DNA of 27,650 nucleotides from a virus: the IMG/VR virus record IMGVR_UViG_3300021960_000396, positions 1 through 27,650 of that record; one strand, written 5' to 3'. Each line of letters begins with the position of its first letter. The first letter of the stretch is position 1. A program made the position numbers and the translations under genes. Under the pieces are notes generated by a model. The model saw only the letters and a list, made by a program, of their open reading frames with translations. It ran no database searches and was not told where the DNA came from. Below, one piece after another: positions 3,211 through 16,480 of this stretch.

Positions 3211-6200
3211 TTAGTAACCAAAAGTTTCTCTTGTATACTTCAAATATGATTCGGCTCTTTCCTGTTTGCCTCGTCTTAAATAGTCTTGAGTCCTAGCTTT
3301 AACATATTGCCTACGTTCAATATCGGTAAAGTGAATTGAATCAGTAGTAGCATCGCCTATAGCATCTCGTAGTTCGTCATCAAGACGAAGATGAATACTT
3401 TCAAAATTCTTAGTATCAGGATTCAGTGCTTCTGTAGAGTTAAGAGCATCCTTAAACCTATTTCTAAAACCTTGACCACCGCCTTCAGTATCGTTCATAA
3501 CACGCCTAATACCATCAAGCCACCTTCCCTGTTTACCCATGATGCTGAGAATATCAGACTGCTCCACATTATCTAGTGGTTCGCCCTTACCATTTGTACG
3601 CAAGGCAGCAGTAGCGTCATACTCAATATCAATAAGGAACTGTTTTTCAGGACTAATTTTTCCGCTTTCTTTCCATGGCGTATAGACATTCTTAAAACGT
3701 GTAAAGATATCCTCTGTACCGTTTACTTCTTTGCCATCAATCCAGTCGTACTTAGCTGGAAGAAGTCCTTTGGCACCAGGAAGGCGGTTCATAATCATAC
3801 CTTTGAGGTCGTTATTGATTTGATTAAGACCAGGATCCATGATTCTGCCGATTTCAGCCATCTGACTAGAACCTCGTACAGTTGATGATGTGATGAATGC
3901 AGAAGCCCAACGATTAAAAGCACCTATATCACCGCGTGCTACATCTAGAAACGGCTCAACACCAGCCATATAAGTCTTGTCTGCAAAAGAAGCAGCAAAG
4001 ACAAAACCTAGCTTTTTAAAAAGTTCACCAACACCTTGAGGTTCAAGAACATCAAAGTTGTCTCCAATAGTACCTACTAGACTTAAAAAATTAGTAACTG
4101 GACCCAAGCCTTCAAAGCTATACCACTTGTCATCAAGACCACGTATTGAATTAGGCTGCCAACCACTCTCTCTTCTTGTCTTTTGAACTTGACGATTGTA
4201 ATGACCAACCCCATGCAATCGATCATCTAAGAACAAACCGATAGCAGAAGCTGTAACTAAACCACCTAACGCCTTTCTTCCAAGAATATCTGCACGCAGT
4301 TCATTGTACTTGCCTTTAGCAACGAACGGGTCAGATACATCGACTCCTCTTTGTCTAAGGATGTCAAGAACTTTTCCTGTCTCCATATCGTCAAATGATT
4401 TACTAAAGACATTCATATCTTTAACAAACATACCCAACAGAGGATCTATAGGACTATAAGTTAATGTATACTGAAGCTCATTAAGCGGTGTTTTGGTAAA
4501 CAAAAAGAATGGCTTCAACACAGGCATCTTACGAATAAGACCAGAGATAGCATCATTGGCATCGTTGTCTAAATTAAAAGACAACTCACCTGCTGCTCTT
4601 TGTACAGACTTATCAGTAATGATTCCATTTTCATTAAACATTTCTGCAAAAGCATCAGCAGCTAAGTCTTCTGCTGCCTTGGGATCAAACTCAACAGTGC
4701 CATTCTTAGTAAATTTATCGAAGGCTCTACCTTTGGCTTCAAAGTTAGCTGTCATAGATTGGACAAAACCATCCATTGCTTGCATTGATCTTGTACCAAA
4801 GCGCAACCAAGGATGATTAGCCAAATCATTCATTGCATTGATATTTTCCATCAACATTTGAGGACCAAAATCACCGACATCAGCCTTGGCTTGTGCAAAT
4901 GCAGTAAGAACATCTAGTTGTCCTTGATTTTTAAGCCCAATGTCATCACGTACTGCCATTACGTTTGGATCAAGTGCTGATCTTTTGTAGATCTGTTTGG
5001 CATAATCCAAGCTGCCGGTAATACTCTGGAGCATATTGCTGTATTGGTACATTCCTCTACGCAATGTACGCTTATCTCCAGTAACCAAAAATCCTGCAAA
5101 TTGCCTCAGTGGTTTTTCAACTAACAAATGACTACCTGAAATACCAGCCTTGATGGGAGTTGCAGCAGCACTCAGCGTAGAGTTATAGACATTTGCATAG
5201 AAAGCCTGGTTAATAACAGAAGGAATCTCAGGCTGAAGATCGATAAATGCCTTATTAAAGATTGATGTAGATTGCTTAACGTAATTGTTTAAAGCACTAA
5301 TTGTATTAACATTGCCATCAGTCAACTCATAAGCCATGAAAAGCGGAGTAAGAATTTCTGGATTACTATCTTTAAGTTCACGTAAAACATTTGTCGTTTC
5401 GGCTGCTTCCTGTTTGAAGCGTTCAATAGCAGCAAGCGTCTTATTACTTTCGTCTTTGATTAAATTTTCTACGCGCTTAGCGGTAGCCTTATCAAATGCG
5501 TTAGAACCTGGAACAGTTACTCTATTCCAAAGATTGAGCATATTCAGAGCACGACCACGAACATAGGAAGTCATACCCTTCTGAGCCATAAGAAATTCAA
5601 CACGATCAAGGATCTGTTCTTGTGCGCGTTGGATGGATCCGGAACCTTCTGTAAGCCGCATTCCCTGCGCCATATCGCTGACCTGACCACCTAGTGATGT
5701 AGCTATATAGCCCTTAGCTATAGCCTCATCCATATTGATGAAGTCGTCCATGTACTTTTTAATAGCACCCATGACGCCAGAATAGGCTTCATCAGTTAAT
5801 TCAGGTGTCCCCGTAGAAACATTTCTACCTTGATAGATAGATCCAGGTCTAATAGATCTTTGAAGCTCCTCAAGATCCATTTCATAGAAATCGTTGGCAT
5901 ATTTTGCACCAACGTCTTGTATCTGTTTGAATGTTAGGTATCTGGTATCGTCAAGTCGGTAACCATATTCACCGGCATCTTTTAAAGTTTCAGCAAGACC
6001 ACTAATAATAATCTTTGCATTTTGACTAGACTCATTGACAAACTTAATAGCAGCATCAGACATGGTACTGCCGACACGTCCATAAGTAGTGCCTAAGTCA
6101 TTTTCAATACGTGCAGCGTCAATTGAAGCTCCCACGATACCTAGATTATCGACAGACCTAATACCCTGTTCTTGATAACCATAAGCATCGTGATAACCCA

Positions 6201-15027: not shown

Positions 15028-16152
15028 TCAGAATGCAGAAGGTGCAGTAGCACCGACATACAGCTCAACAGCTGCAGCAGGGTTGAGGTAATCAGCACCC
15101 ATTGCAAGACGGCCAAGGATAACGTCGCCCTGATAAATCACAGAGACATCACCACTGGTGACTTGTACTTGAGGACCGATTGCTTCAACACAAGCGGCTG
15201 CTTCACGTTGGAAGATAAGACCACAAGATGTAGCAGCAACTTCTGCGGCAGTACCGTAGTCATTGTTGATTCCAGTCTGTGCAGTAGAAGCATCCTCCAA
15301 GGCAGGTCCGATGAAGTCACCGGTATTGCCAGGAGAGGTTTGGCCAGTAGTACCGCCATACTTCGTACCGTACTTACCAAGGAACGGGATGTTCATTGAC
15401 TTGTAGATGTGGATACCCGCAATCTCGATGATGCCGTTACCGCCTTGCAGAGCATTGCCCTGAGCGTCACGGTTGACAAGACCATTGGAACCAACAGCTT
15501 GGATCAATTCGTAGTACTGACGTGGGTTCAGGACGGCACAGCGGCCATCACTTGAAACACCCTTTTCATCCATTGCAGCGGCTGCATCATAGAAAGAAGC
15601 AACCAATGCGGAAGAAGAGAAAGCATCAGATTCGTTGGTAGAAGATCCAACACGGATTTGAGTACCACCAGGCTCAACGAAGCCGGTTGCACTTACTGGG
15701 GATGCTGCACGAGCACCACGAGCAACTGCACGGAAGATCAAGCGGTCATACTTTTCTGCGAGGGCGTAGCCGATCTTGCGGCTGATTTCCGAACGCAGAT
15801 CGTAGTGAGAAAGAGTTTCGTCAAGGTCATAAACGAAGGCTGAACTAATCAGCAGGTCGTCAACCGTGACGGTCTTCTCTGCCACAGGAGGCGCACCGTC
15901 GGAGTTACCGAGGATTGCATTTCCTGGGGTGTGATACTCAGCCTTGGTACGGCCAGTATAAATGAACTGCAATGACTTGCCGTTCTTTAGTGTACGCTTC
16001 ATCACAAGATCGCGAGCGATCGTATTGTGTTGGAAGCCCTTGAACATCTCACCAGAGAAGAGCTTTAAATACAAAGCTCGCTTATCACCAGCAAGATTAG
16101 ATTGACCTAGATTAACCAAACTGGTTGTCAGGTCTGAAGATTGTTGTGCCAT
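15028..16152 (-). CDS. Major capsid protein, T7 gp10-like
   Basis: The 374-residue product has the HK97-fold capsid pattern of T7-like marine phages. Its opening includes DKRALYLKLFSGEMFKGFQ, then AKYHTPGN-type strands and TVDDLLISSAFVYDLDETLSHYDLRSE. There is a helix EKYDRLIFRAVARGARAAS, then RCAVLNPRQYYELIQAV, and the C-terminal domain ends in DYLNPAAAVELYVGA. The length is near that of T7 gp10A (345). It would form the icosahedral shell around the scaffold. It is preceded by an unusual structured leader and followed by a strong terminator, so its transcript level is probably set separately. No Shine-Dalgarno precedes the ATG at 16152, only CTAACTTAA. Confidence 0.95.
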   Translation of the reverse strand: MAQQSSDLTTSLVNLGQSNLAGDKRALYLKLFSGEMFKGFQHNTIARDLVMKRTLKNGKSLQFIYTGRTKAEYHTPGNAILGNSDGAPPVAEKTVTVDDLLISSAFVYDLDETLSHYDLRSEISRKIGYALAEKYDRLIFRAVARGARAASPVSATGFVEPGGTQIRVGSSTNESDAFSSSALVASFYDAAAAMDEKGVSSDGRCAVLNPRQYYELIQAVGSNGLVNRDAQGNALQGGNGIIEIAGIHIYKSMNIPFLGKYGTKYGGTTGQTSPGNTGDFIGPALEDASTAQTGINNDYGTAAEVAATSCGLIFQREAAACVEAIGPQVQVTSGDVSVIYQGDVILGRLAMGADYLNPAAAVELYVGATAPSAF

Positions 16153-16369
16153 TTAAGTTAGAGAGTTAATTATGTACGACTCTCAAAGATCTTTGAGTAA
16201 TATTCAATTGTATTGTGGTCTATCCCACCGTCTAGACGACTAAGGGTATCCCTCGTAAGGGGCCGAAGCCAATAGCAATGGAGTCCTACTCTGAGGTGCT
16301 CCAAAGCCAGACCTTAGGTTTTTCCAGTCCTAAGTCCGTAACCATTCCTTGGGAGTTGTCAAGGAAAAA
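16153..16369 (-). ncRNA. Structured leader RNA candidate upstream of the capsid gene
   Basis: This 217-nt stretch has no long ORF, is visibly richer in G+C than its surroundings, and on the minus strand can form a row of hairpins. They are a 7-bp TTCCTTG/CAAGGAA stem (16345-16366), a 10-bp stem with one bulged G (16308-16338), a two-part stem TGGAG+CCT/AGG+CTCCA (16279-16303), GGC(TTCG)GCC (16261-16270), CCC/GGG (16250-16261) and GTGG/CCAC (16215-16228). Close to the ATG lie two overlapping elements, the palindrome CTCAAAGATCTTTGAG (16182-16197) and GAGAGT/ACTCTC (16161-16184). They share three bases, so both cannot form fully. It does not match tRNA, hammerhead, group I intron or glutamine-riboswitch signatures that I know. 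A capsid mRNA leader, processing site or regulatory RNA is inferred. A 19-codon ORF (ATG at about 16342) lies inside it and may be chance. Confidence 0.45.
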
Positions 16370-16480
16370 TCAGATATTATCAAGCCTCTGAGGGGGCTCT
16401 TTAAACTGCCAGTAGAGATAATGTTTTACTTCTATAAAGATACATAGAGACAAAACAAATATGAGTCCCCACTTAACCAT
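16370..16480 (-). CDS. Small single-span membrane protein, 36 residues
   Basis: ATG at 16480 overlaps the end of the previous small gene by 8 bases (ATGGTTAA) and the frame runs to TGA at 16370. The product begins MVKWGLIFVLSLCIFIEV, with a hydrophobic stretch at residues 4-17, then KHYLYWQFKEPPQRLDNI. One transmembrane helix with a short charged C-terminal tail is the only visible feature. Position and tight overlap argue that it is real; there is no clear ribosome binding site. A holin-like, spanin-like or envelope-interacting role is possible but nothing in the sequence decides it. Confidence 0.5.
   Translation of the reverse strand: MVKWGLIFVLSLCIFIEVKHYLYWQFKEPPQRLDNI

Follow-up and report, generated by a model that had tools for sequence, protein, structure and literature searches.

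The window (the whole stretch of DNA analysed here, a 27,650-base IMG/VR virus record) comes from a T7-like (Autographiviridae) marine cyanophage, and its PHROGs matches include head, connector, tail and ribonucleotide reductase genes. The major capsid protein gene (15028-16152, minus strand; 374 aa; phrog_27239, E = 7.9e-93) encodes a product with 80.8% identity across 97% to the gp10 capsid of P-SSP7, and 74-84% identity to the capsids of S-TIP37, P-SSP7, S-RIP1/2, S-B28 and P-GSP1. The complete gap 5' of the capsid ATG covers 320 nt (16153-16472, minus strand). Its 217 nt directly 5' of the ATG (16153-16369), for which a first-pass annotation had proposed a structured leader RNA, are indeed non-coding, with no ORF of at least 50 aa on either strand. 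No intrinsic terminator (a GC-rich stem followed by a T run) was found within 16153-16472. This leader consists of several separable modules, which the first-pass annotation had not recognised: in 5' to 3' order, a pseudoknot (module M), an upstream hairpin (element A), a conserved core, and a spacer containing a palindrome and a hairpin adjoining the ATG.

All the individual hairpins of the first-pass annotation are found in the leader sequence, including the stem GACUUAGG/CCUAAGGUC, a 7-bp stem (UCCUUGA-type), and a palindrome (16182-16197) and hairpin (16161-16184) that have three bases in common; in the middle of the leader, however, comparative data favour another pairing, and it is the helices of the core (P-a, P2 and P4) that covary instead. 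The C(UUCG)G hairpin, also present in the window, is not conserved, the loop of relatives being AUUG, GUUG or UUUU. A chance feature of the window genome, it was discarded as a functional element; it also competes with P-a. Folding energy was likewise set aside as proof of a structured RNA, as the advantage of the 217 nt over shuffled sequence is slight (z = -1.79, equalled by 8 of 200 shuffles; z = -1.75 in a repeat), and the core alone has none (z = -0.12). Given this weak signal (z = -1.8), the case for an RNA was built on relatives, using covariation.

A blastn search with the leader retrieved more than 30 cyanopodovirus records, always directly before the capsid gene and mostly in unannotated sequence. 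We then considered 214 capsid leaders, drawn from eighty IMG/VR capsid loci, a pattern scan and isolates, 201 of which carry the 3' motif of the core. A strict descriptor of P-a and P2 matched 185 of 188 main-group leaders and at most 0.001 of shuffled sequences, so that hardly any relative lacks the leader. The same descriptor matched 25 of 37 Syn5-type, 33 of 62 S-CBP2-type and 19 of 26 Roseobacter CRP-804-type leaders. Two pelagivirus leaders (one from a Pelagibacter isolate and one from a marine metagenome) have a hairpin that is similar by eye and falls below the descriptor threshold. No match was obtained in the capsid leaders of T7, Pseudomonas Pf-10 and a Rhizobium phage; the same place is occupied in T7 by the phi10 promoter and in Pf-10 by an annotated phage promoter.

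The association with the capsid gene is strict. A context-blind scan for the core pattern returned 120 contigs, and in all 115 of these with an assessable capsid the core lies 43-109 nt upstream of the start and in the same orientation, while capsid identity falls to as little as about 46%. From 15 sequences a covariance model (R1) was derived, which gave 87 matches in 98 sources, with a single copy in the window and a single copy in P-SSP7. The core was thus found solely upstream of capsid genes, at one copy per genome in these two phages. Scanning 84,980 bacterial and archaeal genomes with the pattern yielded 118 contigs, but the pattern comprises 18 letters and nearly all of these matches are due to chance, and a wide bacterial occurrence was therefore rejected. 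When a sample of them was rechecked with R1, L226, L262 and L264 alone were clear, each with a phage capsid gene downstream; the contigs L226 (Porticoccaceae MAG) and L264 (Neomarinimicrobiota MAG) are probably misbinned phage DNA. One apparent loss of the leader, in L030, proved to be a displacement: in this contig, as in L548 and L568, the capsid ATG is preceded by an ORF for a LAGLIDADG endonuclease, with the core retained on the far side of that ORF, 375-416 nt before the ATG. ORFs with the LAGLIDADG-type motif AAGLFEGEG finish just before the capsid ATG in L030, L528, L548 and L568.

The whole core (16215-16271, minus strand) is the only match to R1 in the window (cmsearch, 71.0 bits, E = 1.1e-14). 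Its first helix, P-a (16238-16270, minus strand), is formed by strand s1, GGCUUCGG (16263-16270), pairing with strand s2, CCUUAGUC (16238-16245). The P-a consensus is GGCN-UU-GG / CC-UU-N'GCC with a tandem U.U mismatch, and it encloses a 1x4 internal loop, C/AYAM, and the hairpin P2; in the window, the mismatch is a tandem pyrimidine mismatch and the internal loop is C / AUAC (16246-16249). P2 (16250-16261, minus strand; CCCU-UACG-AGGG) is capped by a YNMG-type tetraloop, and the P2 loops of relatives (UACG, UAAG, UGCG, UGAG, CACG or CGAG) all fit the YNMG pattern. Next comes a short linker, with GACR at its end, and then hairpin P4 (16215-16228, minus strand; GUGG-GAUAGA-CCAC), which has a GANAGA loop and forms the 3' end of the core. 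P4 had at one stage been drawn as GGU/ACC, a pairing dropped for GUGG/CCAC once the variants GUCG/CGAC and UCUG/CAGA appeared; with these, UAGG/CCUA and other stems in relatives, double changes affect 4 of its 4 pairs.

Across 86 distinct core sequences, 99.5% of the cells are paired (81.2% in shuffled sequences), both partners have changed in 11 of the 13 pairs, and the covariation score is 0.438, a value reached by 0 of 500 shuffles (0.104 for shuffled alignments); this signal vanishes when the partner is shifted by one to three columns. This alignment was fitted to the covariance model, MAFFT having aligned P2 poorly, and a tree-based R-scape-like test was therefore run as well (our own implementation, with 60 null alignments in which the inferred substitutions were re-placed on the tree). 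The six most covarying of the 1326 column pairs were all pairs of the structure, four of them with E below 0.05. The strongest covariation of the alignment is that of P2 (column pairs 12-17 and 11-18, E = 0); P-a has column pairs 7-25 (E = 0) and 4-28 (E = 0.017), and the best pair of P4 reached E = 0.63. The base pairs of P-a, P2 and P4 thus covary among relatives. Together with the confinement of P2 loops to the YNMG class, the covariation of these pairs indicates, at the level of comparative sequence analysis, that the core is maintained as RNA, and we regard the existence of a capsid-leader RNA in marine T7-like cyanophages as near certain.

An alternative palindromic hairpin, GCCGUCUAGACGGU, can be formed in most members by s2 with the 5' strand of P4. 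In the window this alternative, P3 (16227-16240, minus strand), reads GUC-GUCUAGAC-GGU. As it overlaps s2 and P4, it excludes both P-a and P4. The P3 palindrome (GTCTAGAC, GTCATGAC or GTCGAC) occurs in 189 leaders; it is missing from L351, L401 and L403, where an AUGACR linker is found instead. Energetically, P3 is poor in the window, where P-a with P4 amounts to -15.3 kcal/mol and P3 with P2 to -4.2 kcal/mol.

Directly 5' of the core lies element A, which has the form of a T-arm in 77 leaders and of what we call a type-2 hairpin in 114, the window included (about 60% of leaders). In the window, the type-2 hairpin (16279-16303, minus strand) has a 5-bp stem and a conserved 15-nt loop, CACCUCAGAGUAGGA (16284-16298). 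The loop is near-invariant among relatives (CACCUCAGWGUMGGA; 8 variants in 114 leaders) and the stems are very variable, with 67 distinct 12-nt flank pairs and stem positions 1-5 paired in at least 94% of cases. The stem reaches 9-11 bp in some relatives, and others have a tRNA or mini-tRNA in its place. The T-arm leaders carry a genuine T-loop, U[U/G]C[A/G]A, and most are mini-tRNAs with an acceptor-like stem; as these stems were found by complementarity search, they are weaker evidence than full tRNAs. Full tRNAs do occur: a true tRNA-Gly precedes the core in L331 NATL1A-7 (annotated, and detected by ARAGORN) and in L131 (ARAGORN), a tRNA-Leu-like gene is fused 5' of the core in L043 and L044, and Rfam tRNA matches were obtained in L331, L545 and L117. 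No cloverleaf tRNA was detected in the window by ARAGORN or Rfam. The distance from the T-loop to s1 is 15-16 nt in 42 of 42 distinct T-arm leaders, and that from the type-2 loop to s1 is 13-14 nt in 60 of 60 distinct scored cases. In length, too, the type-2 hairpin is similar to the tRNA-like forms. The two forms are interchangeable at one place, which suggests that they serve the same purpose. Because the window itself is of type 2, any argument from tRNAs extends to it by analogy alone.

The tRNA-like leaders recall mascRNA / menRNA (RF01684), which also combine an acceptor stem and a T-arm with T-loop, and this family is the best match of the Syn5 mini-tRNA, at 23.4 bits (E = 0.013) and below the gathering score of 42.5. 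In contrast to the leader element, which lies 5' of an mRNA, mascRNA / menRNA lie at the 3' end of a long RNA, and the window's own element A is, unlike them, not tRNA-like. mascRNA / menRNA and other tRNA-like elements are processed by RNase P and RNase Z.

The spacer from the core to the ATG holds a perfect palindrome, CTCAAAGATCTTTGAG (16182-16197, minus strand), centred about 37 nt from the ATG and sharing GAG with a hairpin, GAGAGU/ACUCUC (16161-16184, minus strand), that adjoins the ATG and has similar pairs, by eye, in several relatives. Perfect even palindromes of at least 10 nt were found in the spacers of 72% of 178 relatives and in 12% of shuffled spacers, usually centred 35-44 nt from the ATG and with 44 different sequences. 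These palindromes vary between phages, yet they are self-complementary through the central four bases, and a symmetric centre of this kind is not explained by a simple hairpin. RNA dimer formation, a role at the DNA level and palindrome correction during replication are all open readings.

Upstream of element A, module M (16310-16369, minus strand) is an H-type pseudoknot in which UUUUUCC (16363-16369) pairs with GGAAAAA (16319-16325), itself within the loop of the hairpin CUUAGG/CCUAAG (16329-16334 / 16313-16318), in the order UUUUUCC...CAAGGAAUGGUUACGGA-CUUAGG-ACU-GGAAAAA-CCUAAG. Its linker is conserved as (G)GAAYGGUUWMNGGA. Only a minority of leaders contain M; among 16 relatives, 98.9% of its cells are paired, 9 of 12 pairs have changed on both sides, and its covariation score is 0.693, against 0.215 for shuffled sequences. 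M had no Rfam match, and neither M nor the core matched the glutamine-II riboswitch (Downstream-peptide RNA, RF01704) at E <= 10 in the window or the Syn5 leader. M nonetheless has in common with that riboswitch a topology in which a hairpin loop forms a pseudoknot with a 5' strand, and also the neighbourhood, since a glutamine-II riboswitch lies between psbA and the capsid gene in many relatives; the M linker, GGAACGGUUUAAGGA, is in contrast unlike that of glutamine-II. Real glutamine-II elements near the leader in relatives score 37-58 bits, and M stands in tandem with one, just downstream of it in several relatives (L602, L604, L114 and others). M can precede a small CxxC-type ORF, which resembles the ORF that follows the glutamine-II riboswitch in S-RIP2. 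On this comparative evidence, we consider M a candidate orphan riboswitch. Glutamine-II riboswitches near the capsid leader were seen in P-SSP7 (L338:20522-20575), L323, L083, L331, L330 and L028; in P-SSP7 and others they lie between psbA and the capsid gene, and the window has none at the gathering score.

The first-pass annotation had named no matching phage or cyanobacterial RNA family, and Rfam bore this out, with no match at the gathering score in the window and nothing credible in the leader at E <= 10. The psaA, PhotoRC, wcaG and manA motifs are RNAs of cyanobacteria and cyanophages that also came from comparative genomics, some with UNCG loops (PMC2864571). They belong, however, to photosynthesis and metabolism genes, capsid genes are not mentioned in that work, and the leader has no significant Rfam match. 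Theta ribozymes, which are HDV-like and lie beside phage tRNAs (PMC10879173), similarly place a structured RNA directly 3' of a phage tRNA, as does the leader core; the core differs in the 4-nt YNMG loop of P2 and in being found upstream of one gene only. A ribozyme of this type was set aside as no fit was found: by eye, neither a nested double pseudoknot nor the catalytic J4/2 cytosine could be identified, and there was no Rfam HDV match. Finally, the T7 gene 10 leader with phi10 occupies the same position before the same gene, and both arrangements would give high capsid expression, but in T7 the element is a phage promoter without the P-a/P2 motif, whereas in the marine phages it is a covarying RNA. 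The conserved sequence GGGANAGACCACAA (16215-16226), at the 3' end of the core, resembles the initial transcript GGGAGACCACAAC of phi10 in T7 (L616), possibly by coincidence.

The Syn5 RNA polymerase uses a 15-bp promoter, a single one of which drives transcription over 37 kb (PMC3950665). In the Syn5 genome, this promoter sequence is found solely at 4929 and 44797, and not at the capsid gene, and a search of the window for the Syn5-type promoter ATTGGGCACCCGTAA with up to 3 mismatches gave 0 matches; such a promoter in the capsid leader was thus dropped from consideration. The lack of a capsid promoter in Syn5 and the reach of a single promoter over 37 kb imply that high capsid output is set after transcription, at least in Syn5-like phages.

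The leader is therefore best described as the 5' leader of the capsid mRNA, carrying a conserved, modular, cis-acting RNA. As to its function, the first-pass suggestion of a regulatory or processing element or a protective 5' end still seems the best reading, and among such roles we tentatively favour post-transcriptional processing and protection of the 5' end of the capsid mRNA. The late genes would be read as very long transcripts, with the capsid gene lacking a promoter of its own. RNase P and RNase Z cut a tRNA or tRNA mimic placed directly before a message. A host factor would recognise the upstream module: RNase P, RNase Z or both where this is tRNA-like, and some other host factor or RNase where it is the type-2 hairpin; we know of no enzyme that cuts the latter, which is the form present in the window. 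Close to where P-a begins, the capsid message would be parted from the transcript 5' of it, leaving the core as a structured 5' end that would shield this very abundant message from 5'-end-dependent decay (by RNase E or J) and would also keep it translatable. RNase P and RNase Z both occur in cyanobacteria, and infection by P-SSP7 induces RNase E (PMC10989914), so that a protected 5' end would be useful. This model assigns no role to P3 or to the palindrome near the ATG, and the tRNA, instead of signalling processing, could simply be a partner in recombination. A more specific scenario strikes us as possible but doubtful: in the marine T7-like phages, a promoter at the capsid gene would have been lost or have been absent from the start. 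Instead, tRNA mimicry, or else a new type of hairpin with an equivalent role, would bring in host tRNA-processing enzymes to cut the long late transcript, with the new core capping the capsid mRNA.

A translational operator, with the capsid or another phage or host protein binding the core and tuning capsid synthesis, would fit the strict association with the capsid gene and the conservation of the internal loop and tetraloop class. The internal loop of the core hairpin is asymmetric, as is frequent in coat-protein operators, and the hairpin adjoining the ATG could provide the link to initiation. We nevertheless consider an operator unlikely: the endonuclease genes of L030, L548 and L568 leave a conserved core so far from the ATG that direct occlusion should fail, which disfavours any mechanism requiring contact between the core and the ribosome binding site, and the core also precedes the quite different capsids noted above.

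The exclusive pairings of s2, with s1 in P-a or with the strand that starts P4 in P3, invite comparison with an attenuator (1:2 and 3:4 versus 2:3), for which M, with its riboswitch-like pseudoknot and its glutamine-II neighbours in relatives, would be a possible ligand sensor. The frequency of the P3 palindrome speaks for such a conformational switch, and by eye the three alternative pairings all seem to be compensated jointly in Syn5 and L400. The three leaders devoid of P3, however, make a switch optional at most and exclude a universal four-strand attenuator, M is restricted to a minority of leaders, the pairing of P-a and P4 is far more stable than its alternative in the window, and no U-tract terminator follows, all of which makes a switch improbable.

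A DNA-level element, namely a phage RNA polymerase promoter or binding site, would account for the position equivalent to phi10, the likeness to the T7 initial transcript and the frequent palindromes near the ATG, but it is very improbable for an element whose stems vary freely in sequence while pairing is kept, whose loops stay within an RNA tetraloop class, and which occurs once per genome, the known Syn5 promoter lying elsewhere. Equally hard to credit is a free-standing small RNA or tRNA-like RNA released from a transcript in which the capsid gene is merely downstream: the gap is large and modular and some members contain tRNAs, but the association with the capsid gene is constant, the distance to it is nearly so, and a full tRNA is absent from most members.

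T7-like cyanophages and pelagiphages rank among the most abundant marine viruses, and the single promoter of Syn5 raises the question of how the shell protein comes to greatly outnumber the products of neighbouring genes. An unlisted family of conserved RNAs found only before the capsid gene offers a concrete and testable answer, all the more as two of the phages concerned, S-TIP37 and Syn5, are open to genome engineering (PMC8776855). The riboswitch-like M next to the core could in turn reveal a new sensor.

Three group I introns (RF00028, about 106 bits; L602:1725-1951, L603:2973-3201 and L607:2497-2723) seem to split the major capsid gene in its 3' part. In L093 (at 372), L111, L117 (at 120), L131, L158 and L164, a second type-2 hairpin lies about 0.8-2 kb upstream of the capsid gene, preceding another gene and with a different structured RNA behind it. 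A type-2 hairpin was also seen on L368 (minus strand, near 673-691), a 56-kb virus contig that looks unrelated, just 5' of a Shine-Dalgarno-like sequence of an unknown ORF.
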